Shown: piece after piece, positions 25,872 to 52,381 of the stretch
Layout: every line of letters begins with the position of its first letter
How positions within the stretch are numbered: position 1 is the first letter of the stretch
Source of the DNA: Anaeromyxobacter terrae
Lineage (GTDB): Bacteria; Myxococcota; Myxococcia; Myxococcales; Anaeromyxobacteraceae
NCBI RefSeq assembly: GCF_022690685.1
Contig: NZ_JALCYY010000027.1
Span: 1-64,000, forward strand
Length of the DNA: 64,000 bases
Direction of reading: 5' to 3'
The notes under the pieces: model-generated
Seen by the model: the letters and a program-made list of their open reading frames with translations, nothing else
What the model was told of the DNA's origin: nothing
The model's database searches: none
Translations under genes and position numbers: made by a program

Positions 25872-26621
25872 CTACTTCTCGTCGAACCGCCCGACGGTGG
25901 TCCCGATCGTCTCGCCGAGCACGACGCGGCGGACGTTCCCGCGCAGCGTCGAGTCGAACACGATGATCGGCAGGTCGTTGTCCATGCAGAGGCTGATCGC
26001 CGTCGAGTCCATCACCTTCAGGTTCTTCTTCAGGACGTCGATGTAGCTGAGCTGCTTGAACTTGGTCGCCGTCGGGTTCTTCTTCGGGTCGTCGGTGTAG
26101 ACGCCGTCGACCTTGGTCGCCTTGAGCAGCACGTCCGCGTGGATCTCCATGGCGCGGAGCGAGGCGGCGGTGTCGGTCGTGAAGTAGGGGTTGCCGGTGC
26201 CCGCCGCGAAGATGACCACGCGGCCCTTCTCGAGGTGACGGATCGCGCGGCGGCGGATGTAGGGCTCGGCGACCTGGTGCATCTCGATGGCCGACTGCAC
26301 CCGCGTGTTCACGCCGATCTTCTCGAGCGCGTCCTGCAGGGCCATCGCGTTGATGACCGTCGCGAGCATGCCCATGTAGTCGGCGGAGGAGCGGTCCATG
26401 CCCTCAGTCGCGCCGGACACGCCGCGGAAGATGTTGCCGCCGCCGATGGTGAGCGCGACCTCGACGCCGAGCTCGACGCAGTCCTTCACGTCCTGTGCGA
26501 TGGCGGAGAGGGTCTTCGGCGAGATGCCGTACTTGCCATCGCCCATGAGCGCCTCGCCCGAAAGCTTGAGGAGGATGCGCTTGTAGCTGGGCTTAAGCGT
26601 TGCGGCTCGGTCGCTCGGCAT
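25872..26621 (-). CDS. pyrH: UMP kinase
   Basis: Phosphorylates UMP to UDP in pyrimidine synthesis. 249 residues with the amino-acid-kinase landmarks [16 protein letters not shown] (about 16-31), [29 protein letters not shown] and [16 protein letters not shown]. The ATG at 26621 lies 9 nt after a TAGAAC -10, which is itself 17 nt from a TTGACC -35, so the message should be leaderless. In most bacteria this gene follows rpsB-tsf; here rpsB-tsf is about 13 kb away on the other strand. Confidence 0.97.
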
Positions 26622-26630
26622 GGTCGGCGC

Positions 26631-26659
26631 GTTCTACAGAAGGCCGCTGGGTCGGTCAA
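26631..26659 (-). promoter_or_regulatory. pyrH-frr promoter, TTGACC-17-TAGAAC
   Basis: On the minus strand TTGACC (26659-26654), a 17-nt spacer and TAGAAC (26636-26631) precede the pyrH ATG by 9 nt. Both boxes fit the sigma-70 consensus well, and the spacing from the -10 to the start codon implies a leaderless transcript. Confidence 0.7.
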
Positions 26660-26711
26660 GGCGGCGCGGTTCGTGCGGAATTCTACCCGACGCGCGGGCG
26701 GCGCGCCGGGA

Positions 26712-28334
26712 TCATGATCCGGCCGGAGCCGGAGCCCCGGCGCCGCGACGGCGACGGCGCTTTCCGCCGCGGCGGCGACGGCGTCGGCGCGAGGCCTCCG
26801 CTGCCTCGGGCGCGCCCTCCGCGCCCGTACGGGGGCCCTCGCCTCCGGCCGCGACCTCGACGGACGGGGTCTCCTCCGCGCCACCCGGTCCGGCCTCGGC
26901 GACCACCTCCCGCGCGCTCCCCTCGACGGGAGCGGGGGCGGCCGCAGGGGCCCCAGGACCGCGGCGCCGCTCCGGCCCGCGCTCCGGCCTCGGGCGGCGC
27001 TCCTCGTGCTGCTCGCGGGGCGGCGGGCCGCCAGCGGAGGCGCGCCAGCGCTCGAGCACGTCCTGCCCCTCGCCGGTCGCGGACACCGAGATCTCGAGGA
27101 GCTGCAGCGCGTCCTGGAAGTAGGTCTGCCCGGCGAGCCCGCGGCCGCGCCGCCGCCGCTTCTTGGCCGGCTCGCGGAACGTGCGCATCGCGTGCAGCGC
27201 GAGGCGGGTGCGCTCCGCGATCTTCCGCGGGAGGCGCGCGGTCTGGACGAGCGAGGCGAGCAGCGCGTCCGCCGTGTCGTGGCCGCGCTCCGGGCCGGCG
27301 TGGTCGCCCGTCTCGTCCGAGTCGGGGGCCGCGATCGCGGGACCGCCGAGGTGCATCACGATCGCGCCGAGCAGCACCGCGTCGGAGACGTCGTCGCCCC
27401 CGCGGACGAGCCGGTCGAGCGCGGAGAGGTGCGCGAAGAAGGCGCGCCGTCCCCGCTCCTCCCAGCCCTCGAGCGCGGACGCGAGCGCCGGCAGGATGAC
27501 CGGCAGGGCGCCGCTCGCGCGGAGCAGCTCGAACGCGCGTGCCGAGCCACCGCAGCGCAGGATCTTGAAGATCTCCTCGAGCACGCGGGCTGGCGCGCAG
27601 CGCGCGAGCTCACCGGCGTGGCGGCGCATCGCCTCGAACGTGTCGGGCGAGATGGTGAAGCCGAGCCGCGCCGCGAAGCGGACGGCGCGCAGCAGCCGCA
27701 CCGGATCCTCGCGCATGCGGATCTCGGGGTCGCCGATGGTCGCGATCCGGTGCGCCTCGAGGTCCTCGCGCCCGCCGACGTAGTCGATCACCTCGCCGGT
27801 CGAGACGTCGTAGAAGAGGCCGTTCACCGTGAAGTCGCGGCGGACCGAGTCCTCCTCGGCGGTGCCGAAGACGTTGTCGCGGGTGATGAGCAGGTCACTG
27901 TCGTCGGGGACGTCCTCGCCGACGTCCACCGGGTTCTTCCGGAACGTCGCGACCTCGATCACCTTCCCGCCGCGGAAGTAGACGTGCGCGAGCCGGAAGC
28001 GGCGCCCGATGAGGCGGCAGTTGCGGAAGATGGCGCGGACCTCGCCCGGGTGGGCGTCGGTCGCGACGTCGAAGTCCTTGGGCTTGGCACCGAGGAGCAG
28101 ATCCCGCACGCAGCCGCCGACGAAGTACGCGCGGTGATGCATGTGCCGCAGCCGCGCGATGACCTTCACCGCGTCAGCGTCGAGCCGATCTATCGGGATC
28201 TCGGGCGGATGTTCCGGCGGCGGCTCCTCCGGAGGATCGAGCGCGAGGCCGGGCGGGGGTCGGTGGGGGCGGCTCTCTTCGAGGTCTTCTTCGGGGAACG
28301 CCGGGGAAAGGTCGGTCGGAGATCGCTCGTGCAT
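26712..28334 (-). CDS. pcnB: Poly(A) polymerase I / tRNA nucleotidyltransferase family
   Basis: 540 residues. The nucleotidyltransferase head has YFVGGCVRDLLLGAKPKDFD at about 70-89 with the DxD metal motif, then VIEVATFRKN and RRDFTVNGLFYD. The long ALGFTISPDTFEAMRRH-type helical body and the more than 100-residue basic C-terminal tail (runs of Arg/Lys) suit PcnB, which polyadenylates RNA for decay, better than a CCA-adding enzyme. The start at ATG 28334 leaves a Pro/Glu-rich N-terminal leader of about 55 residues. It has its own promoter in the 116-base gap after rnhB. Confidence 0.88.
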   Translation of the reverse strand: MHERSPTDLSPAFPEEDLEESRPHRPPPGLALDPPEEPPPEHPPEIPIDRLDADAVKVIARLRHMHHRAYFVGGCVRDLLLGAKPKDFDVATDAHPGEVRAIFRNCRLIGRRFRLAHVYFRGGKVIEVATFRKNPVDVGEDVPDDSDLLITRDNVFGTAEEDSVRRDFTVNGLFYDVSTGEVIDYVGGREDLEAHRIATIGDPEIRMREDPVRLLRAVRFAARLGFTISPDTFEAMRRHAGELARCAPARVLEEIFKILRCGGSARAFELLRASGALPVILPALASALEGWEERGRRAFFAHLSALDRLVRGGDDVSDAVLLGAIVMHLGGPAIAAPDSDETGDHAGPERGHDTADALLASLVQTARLPRKIAERTRLALHAMRTFREPAKKRRRRGRGLAGQTYFQDALQLLEISVSATGEGQDVLERWRASAGGPPPREQHEERRPRPERGPERRRGPGAPAAAPAPVEGSAREVVAEAGPGGAEETPSVEVAAGGEGPRTGAEGAPEAAEASRRRRRRRGGKRRRRRGAGAPAPAGS

Positions 28335-28425
28335 GCAGTCGCCGGATCGGGGGGCGTCCCGCGCCGAGGTGAACTCCCCGGCTCGCGGGAACGCGCCTGC
28401 ACCGTCGGGCTCGTCCTTGGGAGGC

Positions 28426-28454
28426 GTTGTAGCGAGCGGCGAGGCTCAGGTCAA
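28426..28454 (-). promoter_or_regulatory. pcnB promoter, TTGACC-17-TACAAC
   Basis: TTGACC (28454-28449, minus strand) overlaps the rnhB stop codon and is followed after exactly 17 nt by TACAAC (28431-28426). The pcnB start is about 90 nt downstream, so this message has a leader. Confidence 0.65.
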
Positions 28455-29419
28455 ACCCGTCGTGCCACGGCCGGGGCGCGCGGCTCCCCTGCCTCCAGCG
28501 CGCCGACCGCGTCCGGGGCCTCGCCGCGCGGGCCCGGATCGCCGTCCCCGCACTGCCCCGCCTCGCCAGGCGGCAGGTCCTCGTCGAGCTCGGGCGGCGG
28601 GGCGAACAGCTCGCCCTGCAGCGGCTCGAGGCCGAGCGCCTCGCGCACGGGCTGGAAGGAGCGCCGGTGGATCGGGCAGGCGCCGAGCCGCCTGAGCGCC
28701 TCGAAGTGCTCGGCGGTCGGGTAGCCCTTGTGGCGGCAGAACCCGTAGCCCGGGTAGGCCGCGTCGAGCTCGGTCATGAGCGCGTCGCGCGTGGTCTTGG
28801 CGAGGATGCTCGCCGCGGCGATGGTGAGCGACAGCGCGTCGCCGTGGATGATGGGCGTCTGCGGGAGCGCGAGCTCGGGGAGCTTGCGGGCGTCGACGAG
28901 CACGTGCCCGGGCGCGGGCGTGAGCGCCTGCACGGCGCGCGTGAGCGCGAGCAGGCCGGCCCGGTAGATGTTGAGGCGGTCGATCTCCTCGACCTCCGCG
29001 CGCGCCACGGCCCAGCAGATCGCGTTCGCGCGGATGTCCTCCGCGAGCCGCTCGCGCTCCCTGCGATCGAGCTGCTTCGAGTCGTCGATCCCGCGCGGCC
29101 GGTAGTCGCGCGGGAGGATGCACGCGCCCGCCACCACCGGCCCCGCGAGCGGCGCCATGCCGGCCTCGTCCACCCCCGCGACGAGCGTGACGCCCCTGTC
29201 CCAGAGTTCCCCCTCGAAGCGGAGCAGGTGCCGAAGGCGCTGTCCTTCCGCGCGGTTGGCGTGCCGGCGCTTCAGGAGGAGCCGGAGCACCTCCCGCGCG
29301 CCCGCCCGCGGGTCCACCGTGAGGGCCGCCTCGCACTCGGGCGACAGCGCGCAGGTCCGGTCGAGGAACCGCTCGCGCAGCTCGGCCACGGACATCCGGG
29401 CGAGGTCTTCGGGGCGCAT
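28451..29419 (-). CDS. rnhB: Ribonuclease HII with N- and C-terminal extensions
   Basis: Cuts RNA in RNA-DNA hybrids and at single ribonucleotides in DNA. The catalytic core begins at about residue 80 ([20 protein letters not shown]), with Asp/Glu metal ligands there and Asp in [11 protein letters not shown], then [15 protein letters not shown] and [18 protein letters not shown]. The 322 residues exceed the usual 200-260. The first 77 ([18 protein letters not shown]...) form an extra basic helical domain, and about 45 Pro/Glu-rich residues follow the core. A decayed copy of the 5' end and promoter lies 2 kb away at 31402-31645. Confidence 0.93.
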
Positions 29420-29428
29420 GCGGGGCGA

Positions 29429-29434
29429 AGTCTA
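29429..29434 (-). promoter_or_regulatory. -10-like box TAGACT, 9 nt before the rnhB ATG
   Basis: On the minus strand TAGACT is followed by nine bases and the ATG at 29419. The same box is kept in the degenerate rnhB copy at 31635-31640, which shows that the duplicated segment included the promoter. Confidence 0.5.
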
Positions 29435-29519
29435 CGCCAGAGCCGCGCGAGGCGGGAATGAGGTCGCTCCCGGCGAACCGGATCGGCGCCGCCCGCGCGC
29501 TTCGGGCTGCACCTCGGAC

Positions 29520-30218
29520 TCAGTCCCCAACTCGCTCGGCTCGATTCCTCTCCTCCTGGTCCTTCTCGATCGCCATCAACGCAGCCGCGGCCTCCGTCTT
29601 CCCAAGCCGCACGAGCTTTTCCGAGGCTCGCTCGACGGCAGCGGACCCCCCAGCGTTGCGAAGCTGGGCATGCAGCACTCGCCTGAGCGTGTCGTCTCCG
29701 CGGATGGACAGCGTCGCGATGGCAGCGATCGCCGCATCGGGATCGAGTCGCATCGCCAGGAATGATTCCGAGACCACCACGTTGATATCCGACTCATCCG
29801 AGAACGCCTGGATGATTCCTTCTGCATTCTTCCGCACGGCATCCTCAGGCGCGCTCCTGAGCGCGTCGACCGCCAATCCACGCATGACCGGGTCCCGCTC
29901 GTGCCTCATCATGTGGATCAAGCGAGGGACCAGATCGCCGCTCGTGGATTTGGCGATGGACAGAACCGCCAATGCGGCGGCTCGATACACGGGATCGGAC
30001 TGCGAGAGCGCTTCGCGAACGATGCGCTCGGGGGGAACGCGACGCGCGAGTCGTTCGCCAGCAGACGTGAGAGCGGTCAGATCACCGATCGAGCGCCGCC
30101 CCGTCACGAAGTACGCTCTATGGAGCTCTACGTATTCACCCGCCACCCGCACCCACTCGCTGCCGGAATCACCGGGTTGGGCCGCAAGAGCACACGCAAA
30201 CGCAAGCGAAGCCAACAT
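29520..30218 (-). CDS. Exported HEAT-repeat protein
   Basis: 232 residues from ATG 30218, preceded by a good GGGAGGGCTA site. MLASLAFACALAAQ is a short signal peptide. The rest is a run of paired helices typical of HEAT repeats: DPVYRAAALAVLSIAKS, RDPVMRGLAVDALRSAPED and SFLAMRLDPDAAIAAIATL. Such proteins usually act as protein-binding scaffolds; no enzyme motif is seen. Codon use is clearly less GC-biased than in neighbours (TCT, AAT and ATT codons occur), so this gene and the two upstream may have been acquired. Confidence 0.65.
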   Translation of the reverse strand: MLASLAFACALAAQPGDSGSEWVRVAGEYVELHRAYFVTGRRSIGDLTALTSAGERLARRVPPERIVREALSQSDPVYRAAALAVLSIAKSTSGDLVPRLIHMMRHERDPVMRGLAVDALRSAPEDAVRKNAEGIIQAFSDESDINVVVSESFLAMRLDPDAAIAAIATLSIRGDDTLRRVLHAQLRNAGGSAAVERASEKLVRLGKTEAAAALMAIEKDQEERNRAERVGD

Positions 30219-30303
30219 TAGCCCTCCCGTTCCGCGCAGCTTCTGCTGGATTCCAATGGATTCCGACGACGGAGGATTCCCACGGACCAGGCATCGAACC
30301 CGA

Positions 30304-30903
30304 CTAATACGTCTCCAGCCGTGTCACGGAGATATCGTCCGCGCGCGCATCAAACCCGAACACGACCGCGATGGACGCCACCCCTGACAGGTTGGGGAAC
30401 GCTCGCAAAGCCTCCTCCCCTTCGATGGCCAGAATCCTTTCCCGCATTTGCGGTGGAAGCGGAACCTCGTAGTTGCGGCTCCATTTGAGGGCCCGGCCGC
30501 TCGAGGAGTCGGGCGGCCCAAGGAGACGGCGCACTTCGGCCCGAGTCAGCCCAAGACGAAGCCCGTTCGAGAACGCGATGGCCGCGGTGATGCCCTTGAT
30601 TGCTTTACAGGTCGCAGTCGGCGGCGGCGCTGCGACCAGCCGGATCGACGTGACCCCGAGCTCCACGTAGTCCGCGACGGACTGGAAGACGACAGCGGCT
30701 CCATCGCCCCTCCGCTCCGCGGCGTAGCACAGCTGGGGTTCGCCTTCGCGACTTCGAGACACCGGAACATCGCCGAGGTGCGTCCGAATATCCGCGAAAG
30801 TGCACTTTTGAGGAGAACAATCCAGAAGCGACGGCACCCACCCCGCCGGTGGCTTGCTATTGCCGGACCCAGCCAGCAGCGCGATGGCCAAGAGAACCAT
30901 CAT
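30304..30903 (-). CDS. Exported protein of unknown family
   Basis: 199 residues; ATG 30903 (a second ATG follows at once) with GAGGTGA upstream. MMVLLAIALLAGSGNS is a signal peptide; the mature protein has cysteines (LLDCSPQKCTF, ATCKAI) that could form disulfides. The middle (IAFSNGLRLGLTRAEVRRLL) resembles the SmpA/BamE-like pattern of a short helix then LGxP (LLGPPDSSS). That resemblance is weak. It follows the small ORF at 30908 by only four bases and precedes the HEAT protein, so the three may be one operon. Confidence 0.6.
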   Translation of the reverse strand: MMVLLAIALLAGSGNSKPPAGWVPSLLDCSPQKCTFADIRTHLGDVPVSRSREGEPQLCYAAERRGDGAAVVFQSVADYVELGVTSIRLVAAPPPTATCKAIKGITAAIAFSNGLRLGLTRAEVRRLLGPPDSSSGRALKWSRNYEVPLPPQMRERILAIEGEEALRAFPNLSGVASIAVVFGFDARADDISVTRLETY

Positions 30904-30907
30904 GGAG

Positions 30908-31201
30908 TCACCTCGAGAGTGCCGCCGCCCATTCGAACCAGCGTAGTCCTATGGAAAGGGGCTCGACCCGGAGCGTTGGCATCGTTATCGCCTGCCTCGG
31001 CGCCGACCTCGCGGTCGACCATCGTCCACGACGAGACCTCACGGCACACCCGTTACCGGAACATGTTTCACGTCCGCGCCGCGGGCCTTCGCGTCGTCCC
31101 CCAACCGACGCCGCAAAAAAGGCGAATCGCAAGCGATCACTTTCCGCGAACAGAAATACGGCCATGCCCGCAGCCAAAAGGATACCGACTGCACCAGCCA
31201 T
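30908..31201 (-). CDS. Possible 97-residue membrane protein
   Basis: ATG 31201 with AAGGGTCAGG upstream. The N-terminus MAGAVGILLAAGMAVFLFAE is one membrane helix, followed by a basic, cysteine-containing region and IGLRWFEWAAALSR at the end. The TGA lies 5 bases before the next ATG, a typical operon spacing. A second open frame overlaps it out of register (31039-31248), so I am not sure which, if either, is real. Confidence 0.35.
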   Translation of the reverse strand: MAGAVGILLAAGMAVFLFAESDRLRFAFFAASVGGRREGPRRGRETCSGNGCAVRSRRGRWSTARSAPRQAITMPTLRVEPLSIGLRWFEWAAALSR

Positions 31202-31327
31202 CCTGACCCTTCACAGCTGGTGAGTCGCACGAAGCCACAGCGCGTCATTCAATTCATCCTCCTCACGGGGAGCGTCCTCCGGCGACCGCCCGACCGCCAC
31301 CGACCGCCAGACCCCCGACCGCCAGAT
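31202..31327. other. Non-coding stretch with short tandem ACCGCCAGAC-like units
   Basis: Starts AT-rich (CATTCAATTCATCCTCCTCA) and becomes a small array of CGACCGCCA-type units (CGACCGCCACCGACCGCCAG, then CCCCGACCGCCAG) that leads directly into the 74-bp repeat at 31328. No gene seen. The other copy of that repeat is also preceded by short tandem units containing GCCAGAC. Confidence 0.4.
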
Positions 31328-31401
31328 GTTGCGCCCGCCTCGAACATCTGCCGCGCTCATGGAAGGGAAGTTTGTCACCTATCGTGAATATGCGTCACCC
31401 G
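31328..31401. repeat. 74-bp dispersed repeat A, copy 1
   Basis: Matches 33100-33173 without gaps at 64 of 74 positions. It begins GTTGCGCC and ends GAATATGCGTCACCCG. It contains CCGCGCTCATGGAA and a pairable GTCACCTATCGTGAATA part. The right end is also the exact point where similarity to rnhB begins, so the repeat marks a junction. Likely a non-autonomous mobile element. Confidence 0.7.
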
Positions 31402-31645
31402 GCCTCCCCGTGGACGCCCTGTCCCAGAGTCCCCCTCGTAGCGGAGCAGGTGCCGAAGGCGCTGTCCTTCCGCTCGGTTGGCGTGCCGGCGCTTCAGGAC
31501 GAGCGCGCGCGCCCGACCGCGGCTCCACCGTGAGGGCCGCCTCGCACCCGGGCGTAAGGGGGCGCGGTTCCGGTCGGGGAACCACTCGTGCAGCTCGGCC
31601 ACTTACATGAGGTATTTGGGGCGCACGCGCGGCGAGTCTAGCGCC
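31402..31645 (-). pseudogene. rnhB: Degenerate copy of the rnhB promoter and N-terminal extension
   Basis: Minus-strand sequence here matches 29161-29443 of rnhB with indels. The TAGACT box is kept. The start is GTG (MRPKYLM) and a TAA stops it at codon 8; then VAELHEWFPDR matches [11 protein letters not shown], and [20 protein letters not shown] is nearly identical to [20 protein letters not shown]. The catalytic core is absent. The copy therefore cannot make RNase HII. Conservation is strongest over about 60 bases (31441-31500), so it is a partial duplicate that is decaying. Confidence 0.85.
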
Positions 31646-32102
31646 ACGTCGGCGCGGCGCGAAGGACGACCAGGACCCACTCCGCAGTGCGTGCGAAGTC
31701 TCGCGGAGCGCCGGCGACGCGGCCGAGTGGCCAGCCGAGCAGAGAGTTCAGCTCGTAATTGACGCTCATGACCCTGGGAGAGGCGGCGTCATCACCTCTC
31801 TTGTGCCCCGACGAACTGCCCTCGCGAGCCAAGCGCCCTAGGTGGCGCTCGCGTCGCGAGGCGGAGGATTCGGGTCGAGGTCCCGGCACGGCTGGAGCGC
31901 CTGACAGAAGCGCAATCGGAGATGACGAAGGCTCCCGCCTCATTGGACGGAATCGCGACTTCAATTGGGACCTTCGTACAGATCTTCTCCCACATCGCGC
32001 TAGACCTTATGTCGTATCCGCACGCGTAAGCATCCTCGCGCGCTGCCGATCGCTTACGCGGCCGACATGCCGACGAAATGATCCCACGGACGGGAATGCG
32101 CC
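31646..32102. other. Gap with a truncated ORF and an inverted repeat
   Basis: A minus-strand frame at 31638-31769 (MSVNYELNSLLGWPLGRVAG..., 43 residues) ends at the TAG inside the TAGACT box of the rnhB fragment. It may be a gene cut off by that insertion. The remaining bases up to the cupin gene are of ordinary composition with no convincing gene. A 9-bp inverted repeat at 32023-32060 is listed separately. Confidence 0.35.
32023..32060. promoter_or_regulatory. Inverted repeat CGCGTAAGC-N20-GCTTACGCG upstream of the cupin gene
   Basis: The 9-bp arms (32023-32031 and 32052-32060) are perfectly complementary, 29 bases apart centre to centre, which is close to three helical turns. The right arm ends 42 bases before the cupin ATG. 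The spacing suits a dimeric repressor or activator. No regulator gene is adjacent. Confidence 0.45.
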
Positions 32103-32567
32103 ATGAGCCAGACGGACATCGTCGAGAGCAGCCCCGCCGTGCACCTTGGTCAGGACGACGGGGAGTCCTTCCGCCTGGGACCGCTCGAGATCATCGTCAA
32201 GGAGAACGGCTCCGGCACGCGCATGAACCTAGCTGTGGCCGAGTTCCGCGGAAACGCCTTCCGCATCCCGCCCCACATTCATACCGAGCACGACGAGATG
32301 ATCTATGTCCTCGAAGGACGGATGGGGGTGAAGCTCGGCGAGCGGACCCTCACCGCCACCGCGGGCAGTTCCTTCACCATCCCGGTCAACATACCGCACG
32401 CGATCTGGAACGAGAGCGGTGCGCGGGTTCGGTTCCTCAACATCATCGTGGCCGCACGCTTCCTCGACTACTTCCGCGAGATGGCCGCCGCAGCGGGCAC
32501 CGGCCTGCCGCCGGCCGAGGTGATCGCGAAGGTCATGGGGCACTACGGGCTCAAGCCGGTGGCGTAG
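32103..32567 (+). CDS. Single-domain cupin protein
   Basis: 154 residues from ATG 32103. The two cupin motifs are clear: FRIPPHIHTEHDEMIYVLEG (about 55-74; His, His and Glu metal ligands) and IPVNIPHAIWNESGARVRFL (about 98-117). It binds a divalent metal; the family includes dioxygenases, isomerases and small-molecule sensors, and this sequence does not decide among them. After the barrel is a helical tail (ARFLDYFREMAAAAG). The inverted repeat upstream suggests specific regulation. The gene lies alone in the accessory region. Confidence 0.75.
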   Translation: MSQTDIVESSPAVHLGQDDGESFRLGPLEIIVKENGSGTRMNLAVAEFRGNAFRIPPHIHTEHDEMIYVLEGRMGVKLGERTLTATAGSSFTIPVNIPHAIWNESGARVRFLNIIVAARFLDYFREMAAAAGTGLPPAEVIAKVMGHYGLKPVA

Positions 32568-32595
32568 CAGCCCGCGGCCCCAGCCCCAGGGCTCG

Positions 32596-33027
32596 TCACG
32601 GAGCGCCCTCGTCCTGCACGTATCTCACCTGGACGCGCCCAACCCGCGCCTCGTTCGTGAACACACGCAGGCGGGGGTCGTACCTCACGGTCACCGCCTC
32701 GTCCGTGTCCCAGCGGACGTCGAGCTTCAAAGGGACATCGGTGTGACCGGCGTCCGCGGAGAATGCGTTTCCGGCCCGGTTCGGCAGCCCCGCCTCTGCT
32801 CTCAGGATCGACAGCTCCACGCCGTACGCGGTCGTCGCTCCGCAGTCTCGCAGGAACACGACGGCACGAAGTCGTCCCGACGGCGACAATGCCTCCGAGA
32901 CCAGCTCATTTCCGCACGGGTCGAGCCGGCCACAGACCGGCGACAAGAAGAGCGCGGCCAACGCGACCAGCGCCAGGAGGAGCGCGACCAGCAGGTCGAT
33001 CACGCCGATGGGCCGCCTCGTGGTCAT
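32596..33027 (-). CDS. Membrane-anchored small protein with an RDCGATT motif
   Basis: 143 residues from ATG 33027. One N-terminal helix (VIDLLVALLLALVALAALFL) anchors a periplasmic domain. The motif SPSGRLRAVVFLRDCGATTA (about 49-68), then VELSIL, is shared with a group of small bacterial proteins of unknown function that carry SPDGKYKAVVFxRDCGATT-like text. Two further cysteines (VCGRLDPCGNE) could pair with the motif cysteine. Its stop is 28 bases from the convergent cupin stop. No function known to me. Confidence 0.6.
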   Translation of the reverse strand: MTTRRPIGVIDLLVALLLALVALAALFLSPVCGRLDPCGNELVSEALSPSGRLRAVVFLRDCGATTAYGVELSILRAEAGLPNRAGNAFSADAGHTDVPLKLDVRWDTDEAVTVRYDPRLRVFTNEARVGRVQVRYVQDEGAP

Positions 33028-33099
33028 GTCGCCGACCCATGTGTGCTAGCCGCGTGTGCCAGACCGCGTGCGTGTGCCCGTGCGTGTGCCAGACCGAGA

Positions 33100-33173
33100 G
33101 TTGCGCCTGCCTCGAACACCCGCCGCGCTCATGGAATTTAACTCTATCACCTGTCGTGAATATGCGTCACCCG
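33100..33173. repeat. 74-bp dispersed repeat A, copy 2
   Basis: Same length and ends as copy 1 at 31328 (64 of 74 identical). It is preceded by tandem GCGTGTGCCAGACCG units (33051 and 33082), as copy 1 is by CCGCCAGAC units. It lies 106 bases downstream of the RAYT transposase stop. Confidence 0.7.
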
Positions 33174-33212
33174 CCCCGCGGCGGAGTGCGCACGTCTCCC
33201 TAGCGCTCCCTC

Positions 33213-33243
33213 GGAGCTGCCCGGTATCAGCGGCGGTGTTCGA
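33213..33243. repeat. 31-bp dispersed repeat C, copy 1
   Basis: GGAGCTGCCCGG followed by TATCAGCGGCGGTGTTCGA; matches 35296-35326 at 26 of 31 positions. It sits 36 bases beyond the stop of the RAYT gene. Confidence 0.6.
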
Positions 33244-33278
33244 AGGACAGAGGGCTCGAATTCGCTGCCGGTTGCCGT

Positions 33279-34163
33279 CTATCCGAAGCCGGCGCATCGG
33301 ACGTCGTGAGCCACGCGCATGAGGTAGGTGCCGGGCGGGAATATCGCCTCCGCGTTCCCCGCGCGTCTCGATGCCCAGGCTGACCGGTACGCCCGCAGGA
33401 ACTCCACGAGCCGACCGAGCGTCTCGATACGCTTCCACTTGTCGCGGGACGCGACCCGCGGATTGAGGCTGCGCCGCGGTTCGCCCGACGCGGGGCGCCC
33501 CGTGGCCTTCTGCGCGAGTACGCGAGCCACGCCCAGGAACCCGCGCCCTCCACGCGCGGCCTGCTCCTCTCGCTCGGCAAGCGCGACCTCGAGCTTGGCG
33601 CGAAATTCGTCGGCCGAGGCGAAGCCAGGAGGCGCGGTGAGCTGGAGCATCGCCTTATCGGGGAGAGCGCCCTTGGGATCGAAGAAGTGCTTCGGCCGCT
33701 TCACCTCGATCGCATCCCCGCCGATCTGCTCTGGAGCCGACCAGAGGCCGGGCCAGAGCCTGGCGGTGCGGACCAGCCGTGCCGCGACCGGGTTGGCGAG
33801 AACGTAGGCGGCCTTCTCGATGACGTCGGTCGGAGAGGCGAGCGCCACGGCGCTGTAGCTGTTGGGCGCCCAGAACGCTTCCCACCGGCCCAACGACGCG
33901 TTGATTGCGCGCGCCACCAGCGCATCCAGGAACTGGTGAAATGCCGGGAGGCGCGCGTCGGGATCCGTCACGATGAGGTGGACGTGGTTCGACAGGACAC
34001 AGAACGCGTGAATCTCGACGCCGTAGCGGCGCGCAGCGACGGCGAGGAGAAACAGAAACACGTTATTCGTTGTTTTGGACGGCTTGAGCAGGAACTGCCG
34101 GTGCGCGCAGCGCCGAGTTACGAGATAGGTGGTTCCTCTGAGAATTTGTCGCGGTGCGGTCAT
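33279..34163 (-). CDS. REP-associated tyrosine transposase (RAYT, Y1/IS200-like)
   Basis: 294 residues from ATG 34163. The start GTTYLVTRRCAHRQFLLKP and the HUH motif in FCVLSNHVHLIVTDPDA (about 54-70) identify the Y1 transposase fold. The nucleophile Tyr is expected in KAAYVLANPVAARLVR (about 129-144), the RAYT form of the YxxxNPV motif. The C-terminal half is Arg-rich, likely for DNA binding. RAYTs are single-copy, non-autonomous-looking relatives of IS200/IS605 enzymes that move short palindromic repeats. Three such repeat families (A, B, C) surround this gene. All key residues look intact. Confidence 0.88.
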   Translation of the reverse strand: MTAPRQILRGTTYLVTRRCAHRQFLLKPSKTTNNVFLFLLAVAARRYGVEIHAFCVLSNHVHLIVTDPDARLPAFHQFLDALVARAINASLGRWEAFWAPNSYSAVALASPTDVIEKAAYVLANPVAARLVRTARLWPGLWSAPEQIGGDAIEVKRPKHFFDPKGALPDKAMLQLTAPPGFASADEFRAKLEVALAEREEQAARGGRGFLGVARVLAQKATGRPASGEPRRSLNPRVASRDKWKRIETLGRLVEFLRAYRSAWASRRAGNAEAIFPPGTYLMRVAHDVRCAGFG

Positions 34164-34252
34164 GCCGCGCGTTCAGGCAGGGACCGTGCCGAGCCCGATC
34201 GCCGATTCGACTGAGGTTCGAAGTCGGGTCAGTCCGCGGTTCGTCCCTGCGG

Positions 34253-34358
34253 GATGAAGCGTGGAACTCTCGGTCTGGCCGCGCGCGCGAGCCGCGCGGC
34301 GAGCCCAGCCCGGTCTGGCCGCGCCCTCGGTCTGGCCGCGCGCGCGAGCCGCGCGGGC
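34253..34358. repeat. Dispersed repeat B, copy 1, with a GGTCTGGCCG tail array
   Basis: 34253-34281 matches 35400-35428 at 27 of 29 positions (GATGAAGCGYGGAACTCT, then CGGTCTGGCCG). It continues with two more CGGTCTGGCC units at 34311 and 34328, and GCGCGCGCGAGCCGCGCGG occurs after the first and, slightly shortened, after the third. It lies 90 bases upstream of the RAYT start. Confidence 0.65.
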
Positions 34359-34404
34359 CGCGAACCCTCCGGCCGCGGACGAATGGTCGCCGCGCCACGT
34401 TCTG

Positions 34405-34410
34405 TACAAT
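34405..34410 (+). promoter_or_regulatory. -10-like box TACAAT, 8 nt before the beta-lactamase ATG
   Basis: TACAAT within TTCTGTACAATGCG is nearly consensus. The eight bases GCGCCCGC separate it from ATG 34419 with no ribosome site, so the message is probably leaderless. Confidence 0.55.
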
Positions 34411-34418
34411 GCGCCCGC

Positions 34419-35288
34419 ATGCACCTCCTTGCGATCCTGCTCGCCGCCACCGCGGTGTCCGACACGACCCCGATCCGTTGCGCGGACTGCGACGCGTGGA
34501 ATGCGCCCCAGGAGCCGTTCCGCATCTACGGGGACACGTACTACGTGGGTCCGAGGGGGCTCTCCTCGGTGCTCATCGACAGTGGCAAGGGGCTCATCCT
34601 GATCGACGGCGGACTGCCGCAGTCGGCGAAGCTCGTCGCCGCCAGCGTTCGCAAGCTCGGGTTCGAGCTGCGCGACGTGCGCTGGATCCTCAACTCACAT
34701 GCGCACTTCGATCACGCGGGGGGGATGGCGGCGCTGCAGCGCATGACGGGCGCGAAGGTGGGCGCGAGCCCCGCCGGCACGCGCGCGCTGAAGACTGGGA
34801 ATGCCGCGCCCGACGATCCCCAGGCCGGGTTCGGCGAGGCCATGCGCTACCCGCCCGTGCGCAACGTGGAACCCATCGCCGACGGCGCGACCGTGACGGT
34901 CGGCGGCGTCACGGTCACGGCGCACCACACGCCAGGCCACACCCCGGGGGGCACCACGTGGACGTGGCGCAGCTGCGAAGGCGACCGCTGCGCCGACGTC
35001 GTGTTCGCCGAGAGCCTGACCGCGATCGCTGCGCCGGGGTTTCGCTACGCCGCCGACACGGCTCGCGTTGCGCAGTTCCGGCGGAGCATCGCCACCATAC
35101 GCGCCCTGCCCTGCGACGTGCTCATCCTCACCCATCCGAGCGGACGCTTCTTCGAGCAACTCGAGGCGAGCGCGCGCGAGGGCAGGACCGCGTTCCTCGA
35201 CTCGAGCGCCTGCCGCGCCTATGCCGACCGCGGCGACGCGTCGCTCTCGCAGCGACTGAGGGACGAGGCCGCCGGCAAGACGCCGTAA
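34419..35288 (+). CDS. Subclass B3-type metallo-beta-lactamase
   Basis: 289 residues with a signal peptide (MHLLAILLAATAVS). Zinc ligands are visible: NSHAHFDHAGG (first site His-x-His and Asp-His), TPGHTPGGTTW and the late His in LILTHPSGRFF. The opening RCADCDAWNAPQEPFRIYGD and TYYVGPRGLSSVLI are typical of subclass B3 (L1-like) enzymes rather than of glyoxalase-type MBL proteins. Predicted to hydrolyse beta-lactams in the periplasm. The ATG 34419 is chosen because of the TACAAT box; the longer frame upstream runs through repeat B. The gene is bracketed by repeats B and C. Confidence 0.85.
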   Translation: MHLLAILLAATAVSDTTPIRCADCDAWNAPQEPFRIYGDTYYVGPRGLSSVLIDSGKGLILIDGGLPQSAKLVAASVRKLGFELRDVRWILNSHAHFDHAGGMAALQRMTGAKVGASPAGTRALKTGNAAPDDPQAGFGEAMRYPPVRNVEPIADGATVTVGGVTVTAHHTPGHTPGGTTWTWRSCEGDRCADVVFAESLTAIAAPGFRYAADTARVAQFRRSIATIRALPCDVLILTHPSGRFFEQLEASAREGRTAFLDSSACRAYADRGDASLSQRLRDEAAGKTP

Positions 35289-35295
35289 GGTCCGC

Positions 35296-35326
35296 GGAAC
35301 TGTCTGGCATCAGCGGCGATGTTCGA
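35296..35326. repeat. 31-bp dispersed repeat C, copy 2
   Basis: Begins 7 bases after the beta-lactamase stop; 26 of 31 positions match 33213-33243 (core ATCAGCGGCGRTGTTCGA). It is followed after 73 bases by repeat B copy 2, so the two look like halves of one composite element. Confidence 0.6.
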
Positions 35327-35399
35327 CTCGCGGTCTCGCTCGCGCGCGCGAGCCGCGAGCGGAGCGAGCGACGGACCCGTCGGATCCGCGGACCGAGGG

Positions 35400-35460
35400 G
35401 ATGAAGCGCGGAACTCTGGGTCTGGCCGAGGTCCGAGGTCAGGCCGGGTCTGGCCGAGGC
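35400..35460. repeat. Dispersed repeat B, copy 2
   Basis: GATGAAGCGCGGAACTCT, then GGGTCTGGCCG, matching 34253-34281 at 27 of 29 positions; a second GGGTCTGGCCGAG follows shortly after. It lies just downstream of the mutM stop. Confidence 0.6.
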
Positions 35461-35484
35461 TTCGGCCGAGCGCCTCCGAGCGCT

Positions 35485-36312
35485 TCACCGCTGGCAGCGC
35501 GGGCAGTAGTACGTCGACCGCTGCGCCTGCACGATCCGGACGATCTCCGCCCGCCGGCAGCGCGGGCACCTCTCACCCTCGCGCGCGTAGACGAGGAACG
35601 GGTTCTCCGCCCCCTCCTCGACGTAGGCGATCTCGGGCCCCTCCTCCCGCGCGATCGTCTCCTTCACCGTCGCGAGGATCCCGTCGGCGAGCCTGCGGAC
35701 CTCGGCCCGCGTGAGCGAGCGCGCCTGCCGGCGCGGATCGATCTTCGCGTGGAAGAGCGACTCGCTCGCGAGGATGTTACCGACCCCGGGGAGGAGCGCC
35801 TGGTCCAGGATGCGGACCTTCACCGGGAGCCTCGATCGGCCGAGCGCGTGCGCGAGCCGCTCGAGGTCGATGCCCCGCTCGAGCGGATCGGGCCCGAGCT
35901 CGGCGATCTCGGGCACCTTCTCGAAGCGCGCGCCCGGCACGACCCGAAGCCGGCCGAACAGCCGCATGTCGTCGAAGTGCAGCACGGCGCCGTCGTCGAG
36001 GTGGAAACGCGCGCGGGAGAAGCGCGTGGCCGTCCCGTCGCCGTCGCGGCGGAGCCACTTGCCCGTCATGCCGAGGTGGGCGAGGAGGCCGACCGGCGCG
36101 CCGTCCTTCTCGAGCGTGACGAGGAGCTGCTTGCCGATGCGCCGGATGTCGCCGAAGCGCGCGCCCTCGAGGCCGCGCGCGAACGAGGCGGGGGTCGCGG
36201 GGCGGAAGACGTAGCGCGCCTTGGGCTCGGGCTCGATCCGCTCGATGCGCCGGCCGTGAGTCCAGCGGCGCAGGTTGCGGGCCGCGATCTCGACCTCGGG
36301 GAGCTCAGGCAC
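35485..36312 (-). CDS. mutM: Formamidopyrimidine-DNA glycosylase
   Basis: Removes 8-oxoguanine and formamidopyrimidines from DNA and nicks the site. 275 residues. The GTG at 36312 gives V/M-PELPEVE, with the catalytic proline directly after the start. The helix-two-turn-helix segment LLPGVGNILASESLFHAKI and the C-terminal zinc finger CPRC...YYCPRC with the QRST loop are intact. It lies 35 bases after rsmB and about 1.4 kb after the peroxiredoxin gene on the same strand, so oxidative-damage repair and peroxide removal are probably cotranscribed. Confidence 0.95.
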   Translation of the reverse strand: MPELPEVEIAARNLRRWTHGRRIERIEPEPKARYVFRPATPASFARGLEGARFGDIRRIGKQLLVTLEKDGAPVGLLAHLGMTGKWLRRDGDGTATRFSRARFHLDDGAVLHFDDMRLFGRLRVVPGARFEKVPEIAELGPDPLERGIDLERLAHALGRSRLPVKVRILDQALLPGVGNILASESLFHAKIDPRRQARSLTRAEVRRLADGILATVKETIAREEGPEIAYVEEGAENPFLVYAREGERCPRCRRAEIVRIVQAQRSTYYCPRCQR

Positions 36313-43317: not shown

Positions 43318-46300
43318 CTAGATCCGGTGGCCGAGCCTCACGTAGAAGAAGCGGCCCATGAAGTCGTAGGTGCGCGGATCCGAGGGGAACGTCTCGATGT
43401 CGTAGGCGGTCGGCGGCTTCGTGTCGAAGACGTTCTGCACGCCGAACGCGAGGCTCGTCCTCCCGGCAGTGCTCGGCAGCACGTAGCTCACGAACGCGTC
43501 CCACGAGTTCCAGGCGGAGACCCTGCGGGAGTAGGTCGAGTCGAGGTAGCAGAGGCCGTCGTTGCCCGACGCACCCTCGGACGTCCCGCACTCCTTGACG
43601 GAGCTGACCCACCGCGTGCTGACGCCGGCGCCGAAGTTCTTCCGACCCCAGGCCACCCCCGCGTTGAGCTTGAACTCCGGCAGATATCCGACGGTGAAGT
43701 AGAGATCCGACGTCCCCTTCGCCTTGATCACCGTCCCGTCGGCGAGCGTCTTGTTGTGCTTCTGCAGCCAGCTGCCGTCCACGAGGAAGTTGAAGCGGCC
43801 GTACGTCGCCGTGGGGACGTCGTACCGGACCGCGGCGTCGATCCCGGCGGCGCTCTCACCGCCGATGTTCACCGCGAGGTCGTCGATGAAGTCGATCAGG
43901 CCGCCCGGCGTGCGGTGCACGAACTCGCAGAACTTCTGGGTCGGCTGGGAGTAGCAGCTCCGGATGATGACGTCGGCGCCGATGGTGCTGATCGAGTTGT
44001 CGATCTTGATGTTGAAGTAGTCCAGGGTCAGCGAGAGGTTCGGGACGTAGCGAGGCTGGAAGACCAGGCCGGCGGTGTAGATGTCGGCCGTCTCGGGCTT
44101 GAGGTTGGGATTGCCGCCGTTGCGGCTCTTCTGCTGCGTGCGGTCGTCCCCGTTGTTCGCGGCGTTGCCGCAGCGCGCGAGGAGCACCGGATCCGTGATC
44201 GGCGCGGGGTTGCCCGCGGGATCGAGCCCGTTGCAGGGGTCGGAGATCGTCGGGAAGTTGTCGGCGACGCCCTGGAAAAGCTCCAGGATGGAAGGCGCGC
44301 GGAAGCCCTGCGAGTAGGTCCCGCGGACGGTGATGTCCGAGAACGGGCTGTACCGGAGCCCGACCTTGTAGGTGTTGTCCGTCCCGAAGGTGCTGTAGTG
44401 GAAGACCCGCGTCGCCGCCGTCGCCTCGAGGTTCTCCGCGAACGGCAGGTTGCCGAGGAGCGGGGCCGAGAGCTCGACGTAGCCCTCGTTGACGGTGAAG
44501 CCGCCCTTCGTGAGCGCGAAGTTGTTGCCGCTGTTCTCGAATGCCCCGCTGATGGGGTTCGGCTCCGACGCGCCGAACTCCCGGCGGCCCTCGTAGCCGA
44601 GGGCGAGCGCGACGGGACGGTCCTCCACGATCCTGAAGATCTCTCCCGTCAGGGTGGCCTGGACGTCGAGGATCTGCCAGCGCGTCCGATCCGTGCCCAG
44701 GAAGCCCAGGCCCGCGACCTGATCCGGCGTGATCGAGCCGGCACCACCCAGCAGGTTGAGCGGCGTGCAGCCGGTGATCACGGTCTTGACGTCGCCGGGG
44801 GTGGTGACGCAGATCGGCTTGCCCGTCGCGGGATCGATCATGCTCGGCCCGATCGCGGCCGCGATCTTGGGCACCCGCAGGGTCCCATCCGTGGTGGAGA
44901 TGCCGGCCGCGCGGCTGAAGTTGAGGTTCACGTCCCACGACCAGCCCTTCACCGGCCCGCCGAGGTCGGGCAGGGTCCCCTCGAGACCGCCGATCAGCTG
45001 CATCGTGTCGATGTCCTGGCGGAAGGAGCGGGGGCCGAACTCGACGAGGCGGCGGCGGACGTCACTGAGATCCACGCCGTACGGGTTGTAGAGGCTGTCC
45101 TTCGAGACGGACACGCCGTTGTTGACGGTGAAGAGCGGCTCGGGGGCGAGCTGCTGCCGGGACTGGCGGTTCACGTAGGACGCCTGGTAGTACGCGCGCG
45201 CAAAGTCGGCGAGCTTCCTGAAGCCGGTCGAGTAGAGCGAGATGCGCTCCTGCGGCGTGTAGAGGTAGTTGGCGGGGTTGAAGTTGTAGGGGTCCTTCTC
45301 CGCGTCGTACGGGCGGGCACCGCCGGGCATGCTCGGATCGACGAAGAGGTTCGTAGGTCCCGTGATCCCCTGGTTCTTGAGATCGCGGCAGGCCGCGGTG
45401 TTGCAGGTCGTCGGATCGAGCCTGAAGCGACCTGCCGGAATGGCGGAGCTGCCGCTGAACGTCTTCTCGCCGGTCTTGAAGTCGAGCGAGTAGATCTTGG
45501 TGCTGAACGTGCGATCGCCCGCGAACACCGGGCCCTGGTAGAAGTAGCCAGCGGCGAACAGGAGGCTGCCGCTGTCGCTGGTGGTCCCCGCCGTGGCGTT
45601 GATGTCGTAGGCCCTGCCGTCGCCGCGCGAGGAGGTGCCGCCGTAGGTGTTCGCCTCGATCCCGCTGAAGTCCTTGCGGGTGATGACGTTCACGACGCCC
45701 GCGATGGCGTCGGAGCCGTAGATCGCCGACGCCCCGTCCTTCAGCACCTCGATCCGCTCGATCGCGGCGATGGGGATGGCGTTCAGGTCGGTCGCCACGA
45801 CCACGTCTCCGACGCCACCGCCGTTGAACAGGCCGGTGAACCTGTGCCCGTTCACGAGCACCAGCGTCCGGTTGCTGCCGAGGGTGCGGAGGCTGATCTG
45901 CGTCGAGCCGTCGCCGCCGTTGTTCACCTGGGCGTTGATCGCGCCGCCCTGCTCCGGGAGGCTCTGCAGGTATTCGCCGACCGACAGCTTCCCGCTCGCC
46001 TGCACCTGCTCGCGGCTGATCACCGTGACCGGCGCCGGCGTCGTGAGGTCCTTGCGACGAATGCGCGTCCCCGTGACGACGACCTCCTCCAGCTTCACGG
46101 CCGCGGGGACCACGGCGAGGGTCGCGCGGATGGTCGTGTCCGCGCGCACCGCGATGTCGGCGCGCTCGGCGGGCCTGTAGCCCTCGAGCTGCACCGCGAG
46201 GCGGTACTGGCCCGGCGGCAGCCCCTCGATGCGGAAGTTGCCACCACCGTCGGTGACGCCGGTCTTCTCCCCGGCCAACGCCGGGCTCGTCGCGACCACG

Positions 46301-46440
46301 AGGGCGCCGGCGACCGGCTTGCCTGTTGCACCGTCCGTGACGACTCCGATGATGACGCCGGTTTCTTGGGCGGACGCGACCCCCGCGAGCAACAGCGCGA
46401 GCGGCGCGATCCGCGAGAGGCGCAGGAACTTCGTCCTCAT
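43318..46440 (-). CDS. TonB-dependent outer-membrane receptor 1
   Basis: 1040 residues from ATG 46440 (GGAGGAAGCC upstream). Signal peptide MRTKFLRLSRIAPLALLLAG to about residue 24; carboxypeptidase-regulatory-like domain at 25-105 (GVVTDGATGKPVAGALVVAT); plug domain from about 110 (EVVVTGTRIRR, VTVISREQVQASGKLSV, RTLGSNRTLVLVNGHRF); then a beta-barrel ending GRFFYVRLGHRI. The plug resembles siderophore/vitamin/saccharide receptors more than Oar. It imports an unidentified ligand using proton-motive force delivered by TonB. It is divergent from tonB-1; the regulatory domain is nearly the same as in receptor 2. Confidence 0.92.
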   Translation of the reverse strand: MRTKFLRLSRIAPLALLLAGVASAQETGVIIGVVTDGATGKPVAGALVVATSPALAGEKTGVTDGGGNFRIEGLPPGQYRLAVQLEGYRPAERADIAVRADTTIRATLAVVPAAVKLEEVVVTGTRIRRKDLTTPAPVTVISREQVQASGKLSVGEYLQSLPEQGGAINAQVNNGGDGSTQISLRTLGSNRTLVLVNGHRFTGLFNGGGVGDVVVATDLNAIPIAAIERIEVLKDGASAIYGSDAIAGVVNVITRKDFSGIEANTYGGTSSRGDGRAYDINATAGTTSDSGSLLFAAGYFYQGPVFAGDRTFSTKIYSLDFKTGEKTFSGSSAIPAGRFRLDPTTCNTAACRDLKNQGITGPTNLFVDPSMPGGARPYDAEKDPYNFNPANYLYTPQERISLYSTGFRKLADFARAYYQASYVNRQSRQQLAPEPLFTVNNGVSVSKDSLYNPYGVDLSDVRRRLVEFGPRSFRQDIDTMQLIGGLEGTLPDLGGPVKGWSWDVNLNFSRAAGISTTDGTLRVPKIAAAIGPSMIDPATGKPICVTTPGDVKTVITGCTPLNLLGGAGSITPDQVAGLGFLGTDRTRWQILDVQATLTGEIFRIVEDRPVALALGYEGRREFGASEPNPISGAFENSGNNFALTKGGFTVNEGYVELSAPLLGNLPFAENLEATAATRVFHYSTFGTDNTYKVGLRYSPFSDITVRGTYSQGFRAPSILELFQGVADNFPTISDPCNGLDPAGNPAPITDPVLLARCGNAANNGDDRTQQKSRNGGNPNLKPETADIYTAGLVFQPRYVPNLSLTLDYFNIKIDNSISTIGADVIIRSCYSQPTQKFCEFVHRTPGGLIDFIDDLAVNIGGESAAGIDAAVRYDVPTATYGRFNFLVDGSWLQKHNKTLADGTVIKAKGTSDLYFTVGYLPEFKLNAGVAWGRKNFGAGVSTRWVSSVKECGTSEGASGNDGLCYLDSTYSRRVSAWNSWDAFVSYVLPSTAGRTSLAFGVQNVFDTKPPTAYDIETFPSDPRTYDFMGRFFYVRLGHRI

Positions 46441-46829
46441 GGCTTCCTCCGGGAAGAGGCACGCAGCCACAGCCAGCCGGGCGATCGGTCGGCTGGAAAT
46501 CTTCACGGTCGACCGGCCAGTCAGCGAGACCCGTCTTGACGCTGGGTGCGCAACGTGTCAAGCCACGGCGCGTCTAAGCGCCTATCGGATGCGCGGGTAA
46601 CGGCATATTCAGGCGGGAGCCGCGCTTTCCGAAAACATTCGTCACCGCGGCCGGTTAGCTTCGTGGTTTGCGACCATTTGCAGCCCGGAGCGGCAAGCGT
46701 TTGAGTGCTCGCCTTTCCCCCCAACAAACCGGCTCACAATCGCGATGGGCGGGTCTCACGGCCGGCGCGCGTTGAAAGCTCGGAGCATGAGGTTAGACAC
46801 TCTCGTCGTCACAACGAGGCAGGCCGGAC
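46441..46829. promoter_or_regulatory. Divergent intergenic region, receptor 1 / tonB-1
   Basis: 389 bases without a gene. A minus-strand TTGACA (46561-46556) could be the -35 of receptor 1, though no good -10 follows at 17 nt. AT-richer blocks (GCATATTC, AAAACATTCGTCACC, CCAACAAACCGGCTCACAATC) suggest promoters for both directions. GTTAGACACTC lies about 40 bases before the tonB-1 GTG. Confidence 0.4.
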
Positions 46830-47567
46830 GTGTTCGAGGAGATCACCAGGACGGAGCGCGGCAAGAACGCCGCTCGCCGTGCGAGCTACGTCCTCGGGTC
46901 GACGCTCTTCCAGTTCCTCGTCGTGGTCGCGGTCGTGGCCGCGTCGGCTGCCTTCAGAGCGGCGGTCGTCAGGGAACCCGTCGTCGAGGTGAAGTTCGTG
47001 CGCACGGCCCCTCCGCCTCCGCCCGCGCCCCCTGCCCCGCCCCCCGCCGCGCGCAGGCGCCCGCCGCAGCAGAAGCCGAGGACCGATCTCCCGAAGCCGC
47101 CGCCGCCGCAGGCCCTGATCCAGCCGAAGGAGGTCCAGCCGGAGATGAAGCCGCCCGATCCGAACGAGCCTCCCGAGCCGGAGTACGACTCCGACGACAG
47201 GGGGGAGGGCGTCGTCGGCGGCGTCGTCGGCGCACCACCCCCACAGCCGCCGCAGGTCCAGGACGCGCCGGCGTACGCCACGACGGGCTATCGCAGGCCG
47301 CAGACGAGCGTTCCCGGCTGCGTGCAGCGCACCCTGCACCTGCCCCCTGAGCTCCTCGACTCCATCGAGGGCGCCATCACGGTGAAGTTCGCCGTCGGAA
47401 AGGACGGCGTCCCGAGCCGGTTCGAGGTCGTGACGGGGGTGCACGACCAGCGCATCGTGAACGCGGTCTGGGGTGCCGTGCAATCCTGCAAGTGGATCCC
47501 CGGCGCGGACGCGCAAGGCAGGCCCGTGTCGATCTGGGTCGTGATGCCGGTCCGGTTCGCCTTCTAG
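46830..47567 (+). CDS. tonB: TonB-family energy transducer 1
   Basis: 245 residues with a GTG start at 46830. An N-terminal cytoplasmic stretch is followed by one membrane helix (about 24-48, ending FRAAVV), then a Pro-rich periplasmic spacer (PPPPPAPPAPPPAARRRPPQ) and a C-terminal TonB domain (KFAVGKDGVPSRFEVVTG, SCKWIPGADAQGRPVSIWVV). It carries energy from an ExbB-ExbD motor to outer-membrane receptors. It is about 60 percent similar throughout to TonB 2 at 52382 but has no exbB/exbD genes of its own, so the two TonBs probably share the motor. It is divergent from receptor 1. Confidence 0.9.
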   Translation: MFEEITRTERGKNAARRASYVLGSTLFQFLVVVAVVAASAAFRAAVVREPVVEVKFVRTAPPPPPAPPAPPPAARRRPPQQKPRTDLPKPPPPQALIQPKEVQPEMKPPDPNEPPEPEYDSDDRGEGVVGGVVGAPPPQPPQVQDAPAYATTGYRRPQTSVPGCVQRTLHLPPELLDSIEGAITVKFAVGKDGVPSRFEVVTGVHDQRIVNAVWGAVQSCKWIPGADAQGRPVSIWVVMPVRFAF

Positions 47568-51894: not shown

Positions 51895-52381
51895 GACTTC
51901 CTCCAGGGAGAGAGCACTCAGCCGCAGCCAGGCGGGCAAACGCTCGTGTAGGCACAGCACGGGACACGGGCGATCGACCGACGGGTCAATGAACAGCCGT
52001 TCTAGACAGCCGCTGTGAGGAATGTCAAGACGCCACCGGCTGTTAGGAGTCGTTGTCGTTTACGCCCCGCCCGGGACGCAACACTCGGAGTTCACGCCGG
52101 TTTTTCGAAAGCGTCACAATGTCGCGGCCTTGACGCTTAGGCCTAGGAAGGCAGCACAGGAGAGACGCAGCGCGTCGTGGCGATCGCGTCCGATCGCGAC
52201 CTCGGGGAAGGCTGCGTGTGGGCGGAATCCTGCGCTCGAGCGGTTCGCCAATGGTTGCGCGGCATGCGCACTATTTTCGCGAGCCGGTATTGACAAGCGG
52301 CAGGCGCGGAGTTTAGGAAGCGTCTTCATTTTTCCGGCTGATTCTGCCGTCAACCGCAGTCAGCAACGAGGCCGCCGGCGC
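51895..52381. promoter_or_regulatory. Divergent intergenic region, receptor 2 / tonB-exbB-exbD-exbD
   Basis: 487 bases without a gene. Toward receptor 2 (minus strand) TTGACA (52028-52023) is followed after 16-18 nt by TCTAGAAC. Toward tonB-2, TTGACA (52290-52295), a 17-nt spacer and TTAGGA (52313-52318) form a good promoter with a 64-nt leader. AT-rich stretches such as CGGTTTTTCGAAAGCGTCACAATG may bind regulators. No Fur-box consensus seen. Confidence 0.6.

Follow-up and report, generated by a model that had tools for sequence, protein, structure and literature searches.

A decayed copy of the rnhB 5' end in the gap upstream of rnhB in an Anaeromyxobacter genome

An Anaeromyxobacter genome (A. 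terrae) carries, 2.2 kb upstream of its intact rnhB and in the same orientation, a damaged second copy of the 5' part of this gene. All coordinates refer to the window, the stretch of 64,000 nucleotides at the start of contig NZ_JALCYY010000027.1 that was analyzed as a whole. This fragment is very probably a non-functional remnant that unequal (illegitimate) recombination left in the gap separating rnhB from the next conserved gene, which we take to be mutM/fpg-like from its MPELPEVE motif, and it has probably decayed at a nearly neutral rate since then. The features of the region are collected in Table 1.

Table 1. Features in and around the gap between rnhB and the mutM/fpg-like gene
Feature	Position	Strand	Basis or remark
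Intact rnhB, ribonuclease HII, 322 aa	28451-29419	-	Pfam RNase_HII, E 1.5e-37, residues 81-257
TAGACT box of intact rnhB	29429-29434	-	AGTCTA on the plus strand
HEAT-repeat-like gene, 232 aa	29520-30218	-	Pfam HEAT_2, 24.3 bits, under the cut-off of 27.7
199-aa ORF	30304-30903	-	ORF
Relic corresponding to the 3' end of the small gene linked to rnhB in A. soli (G005)	31014-31111	-	Sequence comparison
Repeat R1, 91 bases, abutting the left end of the fragment	31314-31404		76/91 columns identical to R2
Decayed rnhB copy	31409-31666	-	Codons 1-77 and about 40 bases upstream
TAGACT box of the fragment	31635-31640	-	AGTCTA on the plus strand
Further upstream flank of the fragment, in common with the rnhB flank of A. 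soli (G005)	31667-31698	-	blastn, 31609-31698 = L053 5610-5701
Stretch whose A. soli counterpart (L053 8750-8820) adjoins the mutM/fpg-like gene at its 3' end	31818-31883		86% over 71 columns
Cupin gene, 154 aa	32103-32567	+	Cupin_2, E 1e-15
143-aa gene	32596-33027	-	Closest G007:C1:264851-265273, 62%
Repeat R2, just upstream of the 143-aa gene, on the far side of the next block	33089-33176		blastn
IS200-like (RAYT-type) Y1 transposase gene	33279-34163	-	PF01797, E 2.2e-4, 21.8 bits, under the cut-off of 23
mutM/fpg-like gene, start estimated	35485-36312	-	Synteny

Homology, decay and the upstream box

When the window was compared with itself (blastn), 31413-31666 aligned to 29189-29461 on the same strand with 81.5% identity over 276 columns, 25 gap positions included (E value 2e-66). 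The fragment as a whole extends over 31409-31666 (minus strand) against 29186-29461 of rnhB, and a local alignment of the two scored 298, while the maximum in 300 dinucleotide shuffles was 48. A sequence-only reading had described 31402-31645 as a decayed partial duplicate of rnhB together with its upstream box, and the alignment, the shuffles and the disrupted frame support this description, though homology reaches 31666 and not 31645. Identity above chance is not confined to the 60-base block singled out in that reading, as separate matches to rnhB of 92%, 88% and 85% (repeat families D1, D3 and D6) span the stretch.

The fragment starts with GTG at 31626, where rnhB has ATG, and its frame 0 reads VRPKYLM* with a stop at codon 8, both as the earlier reading had it. 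Relative to rnhB, the fragment carries a 6-base deletion, an 11-base deletion and a 2-base insertion, with frame-shifting indels among them. It was also correctly said to break off before the catalytic core: homology ends at 29186-29189 of rnhB, at about codon 77, and the RNase_HII domain begins four codons further on. The fragment therefore has the marks of a pseudogene, with above-chance homology to its parent over its length, a broken frame and a missing core domain. We searched 60 genomes, including this one, for the rnhB protein and found matches in 52. In nearly every one of these the match begins at residues 1-10, so the N-terminal extension is shared with other rnhB proteins and is not the unusual feature it had been taken for. 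By rnhB, the named relatives that come closest are A. soli SG29, to which the intact gene is 89% identical, and A. oryzisoli SG63. None of the eight other Anaeromyxobacter genomes searched has a second copy beside rnhB, and the sole extra match among them is a 41-base stretch on another contig of G008, a genome that is 66% complete. An assembly error was ruled out as the source of the fragment, since misjoined reads cannot give 18% divergence between copies.

We compared the fragment with the intact gene and with rnhB of A. soli (G005) and of G007. Across the ~218 compared columns of the coding part, 17 substitutions occur only in the fragment and one further site differs in all, while 6 changes are unique to the intact rnhB; 2 sites join the fragment and the intact rnhB against G005 and G007, and no site shows the opposite grouping. 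These groupings place the duplication shortly after the lineage parted from A. soli. The intact rnhB and that of A. soli differ at 28 of 185 fourfold sites, and the 17-18 changes in the fragment come close to half of this rate, which points to decay at about the neutral rate.

The sequence-only reading had drawn attention to a nearly identical block in the fragment and proposed uneven gene conversion or local selection as its cause. An 84-base block is indeed 92% identical between fragment and rnhB, and both of the sites that unite the fragment with its own rnhB fall in it. This block was picked after being seen, however, and of the 22 fragment-side events over 238 columns 3 lie within its 84 columns; the emptiest 84-column window holds 2 events (permutation p value 0.064), and for windows of 50, 60 and 70 columns the p values were 0.48, 0.19 and 0.27. 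At 29217, inside the block, the fragment retains the base of G005 and G007 and it is the intact rnhB that differs. As the clustering is not significant even at best, neither gene conversion nor selection is needed, and we regard maintenance of the fragment by either one as very unlikely. In this single strain, the number of substitutions in the fragment is close to that expected under neutrality, and no part of it is significantly poor in changes.

The TAGACT box is retained in the fragment, and it lies 7-9 bases before the start in seven of nine Anaeromyxobacter rnhB genes; the remaining two have TACACT and TAGAGT. This box may be the -10 box of a leaderless transcript. The fragment could act as a promoter or leader for the same-strand genes downstream of it (the 199-aa ORF, the HEAT-like gene and rnhB). 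Part of the conservation of the box is owed to another cause, however, as in G001, G002 and G004 its TAG doubles as the stop codon of the mutM/fpg-like gene. In addition, six bases can survive by chance in a copy whose body has decayed almost neutrally, and there is no Rfam match within 28000-36000, so a structured RNA reading was dropped. A promoter or leader role appears quite unlikely to us.

The flanks of the two copies and the joint at R1

The promoter of rnhB had been proposed to be duplicated along with the gene, and this held for the TAGACT box, which is present in both copies, and failed beyond it, where the fragment has an A. soli-type flank and the intact rnhB does not. Over the final 60 alignment columns ahead of the start, 47 of the 58 positions compared were identical between the fragment and A. 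soli; for the intact rnhB, 29 of 60 agreed with A. soli and 28 of 60 with the fragment, both values being lowered by a one-base misplacement of the box. Local alignment of the flanks gave a score of 90 for the fragment and A. soli (0 of 1000 shuffles as high, maximum 54), 54 for the intact rnhB and A. soli (0 of 1000, maximum 50) and 44 for the intact rnhB and the fragment, a score reached by 37 of 1000 shuffles; the two copies in the window are hardly alike beyond ~20 bases upstream. Only ~120 bases past the flank of the fragment lies the stretch at 31818-31883, which in A. soli adjoins the mutM/fpg-like gene. Based on the flank alignments and the position of this stretch, the fragment is the stump on the better-kept, older flank. 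It looks like the old 5' end of rnhB left at its original flank, and the flank of the intact rnhB is newer or far more changed.

At its other end the fragment meets the repeat R1. Homology between R1 and R2 stops at 31404 and homology between fragment and rnhB begins at 31409-31413, so the two are 5-9 bases apart, and a duplication of the DNA between codon 77 of rnhB and the end of R would produce exactly this joint. An unequal or tandem duplication that ended within rnhB would be expected to leave such a joint. The same orientation, the nearness of the copies and a joint at the point where both homologies end are all features of a local duplication, and the substitution loads are alike (12 of 88 aligned bases for R1 and R2, 26 of 251 for fragment and rnhB). 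Microhomology is present at the breakpoint, but ~9% of random pairs reach it, and it was set aside as evidence. We ruled out R as a dispersed repeat, given that R1 and R2 are its only two copies in the genome; 33089-33123 of R2 also matches the region upstream of the homologous gene in G007. Elsewhere in the window, 46075-47539 and 51529-53094 are diverged copies (73-74%) of a longer stretch, and 54032-54090 and 54451-54509 form a 59-base direct repeat with 93% identity.

We infer that a single event gave rise to the duplicates of both rnhB and R. Unequal (illegitimate) recombination in the gap would have joined the end of R to codon 77 of rnhB, with a sister chromosome or the DNA of another strain with a different gap as the partner. 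The outcome would have been one complete rnhB and the cut-off 5' piece on the older flank; this piece would then have decayed almost neutrally, and the DNA separating the copies would meanwhile have been remodelled. The interiors of the two supposed copies, with the HEAT-like gene, the 199-aa ORF and the relic in one and the cupin gene and the 143-aa gene in the other, share no match, which implies either later remodelling of both copies or a crossover between two different gap alleles. This counts against a simple tandem duplication, which would have to be followed by extensive insertion and loss. We also considered a tandem duplication of a HEAT-containing unit in the A. soli gene order and rejected it, as the observed order could not be made to fit.

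Integrative elements in general leave an intact gene and a displaced 5' piece, and the pair described here has this appearance, as if a mobile element had integrated in rnhB, supplied a replacement 5' end and displaced the old one. The three ORFs scanned within 29420-31408 (29520-30218, 30304-30903 and 30908-31201) nonetheless show no likeness to an integrase or transposase, and the HEAT-like gene and the relic are long-standing neighbors of rnhB in G005 and G007. We rate integration of such an element as highly improbable. Neither R nor the fragment is dispersed in the genome, as a copy borne by an insertion element would be.

Contents of the gap and possible mixing of alleles

The mutM/fpg-like gene almost abuts rnhB in the compact relatives, with 10 bases between its stop and the rnhB start in G001, G002 and G004, 47 in G006, ~245 in G003 (blastn) and 619 in G008. 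The gap is long in the window (6065 bases), A. soli (3264 bases) and G007 (2185 bases), where it holds a variable filler of 2-6 kb. The HEAT-like gene is shared with the G007 gap, and G005 retains a remnant of it, while the 199-aa ORF has no relative among the 25 other genomes searched. A family of small genes is present in G005, as relics in G007 and at 31014-31111, and with another, distinct member at 32596-33027. Aligned with the A. soli gene, the relic at 31014-31111 has 76 identities, 20 mismatches and 3 gaps; aligned with the 143-aa gene of the window, it has 48 identities over 77 columns. The greater likeness of the relic to A. soli fits a mixing of two alleles better than a simple tandem duplication.

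Mixing of alleles amounts to the recombination proposed above with a foreign partner. A donor piece with rnhB, the HEAT-like gene, the ORF, the relic and R would have entered through homology at its rnhB end and through an illegitimate join at the opposite end; the resident rnhB would have been cut at codon 77 and its 5' stump would have stayed on the old flank. The A. soli-like flank is accordingly on the stump and not on the intact rnhB, and the ~120 bases from the stump's flank to 31818-31883 correspond to a short-gap layout, while the intact rnhB has a long-gap flank. However, the two shared coding sites join the fragment to the intact rnhB and none groups it otherwise, the likeness to A. 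soli is no lower in codons 1-77 of the intact rnhB than in most of its remaining codons (92-97 per 100) so that no foreign rnhB is visible, and the presence of R at the joint would be a coincidence. A foreign partner is a possibility that we put forward tentatively. A probable recent exchange in this gap, described next, is a further point in its favor.

The transposase gene at 33279-34163, which also lies in the gap, has 8 matches in the genome. Within it, a stretch of 95 bases (33843-33937) recurs with 100% identity and sharp ends at L054 9483-9577, inside the G007 gap. The runner-up among the matches in 26 genomes (including this one) has 83%, and rnhB with its surroundings (26000-29458) is only ~86% identical between the window and G007. 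This suggests a recent exchange of short DNA within the rnhB gap. Near the transposase gene, GC-rich and partly palindromic repeats at 34240-34383 and 35289-35428, possibly REP-like elements, flank a metallo-beta-lactamase-fold gene at 34254-35288.

Precedents and meaning

We found nothing in the literature on Anaeromyxobacter rnhB, and the available parts of publications on Anaeromyxobacter genome rearrangement did not mention an rnhB stump. The rnhB-mutM gap is marked here as a variable spot in Anaeromyxobacter, with the dated scar of one rearrangement, and the example cautions against taking decayed flanks for promoters or leaders. We read the fragment itself as an unremarkable remainder of a local rearrangement; it shows no sign of function and has no wider importance.

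In homology-facilitated illegitimate recombination (PMC3240628), one homologous and one illegitimate join would yield a complete gene and a cut-off stump, as in the window, though a local unequal crossover explains the joint equally well.

A closer precedent comes from G028, a genome of the same order and the only one of the 52 with matches that has two rnhB protein matches. G028 carries an intact rnhB and a tandem duplication of a 5.41-kb unit whose left end lies inside rnhB; the copies (L120 1250-6549 and 6661-11950) are 89% identical, and an extra end piece of 122 bases is found at 12431-12552. In this region (L120 1250-12552, C1), the partial rnhB copy is joined to a 3' piece that is presumably aconitase-like. 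Two of the 60 genomes searched, this one and G028, carry independent duplications that end inside rnhB. It is unlikely, in our estimate, that this makes the rnhB 5' end a recurrent breakpoint in Myxococcota and the rnhB-mutM gap a site at which DNA of other strains is spliced in and leaves stumps as scars. As in the window, an intact rnhB in G028 is accompanied by a 5' partial copy upstream, in the same orientation, that is joined to other DNA inside rnhB. The G028 duplication differs in being fresh and complete, with 5.3 kb at 89% identity, matching interiors and a copy of ~127 codons in a long open frame, whereas in the window likeness is confined to the ends and the copy has decayed. By this comparison, the fragment in the window resembles an older scar left by an event of that kind.
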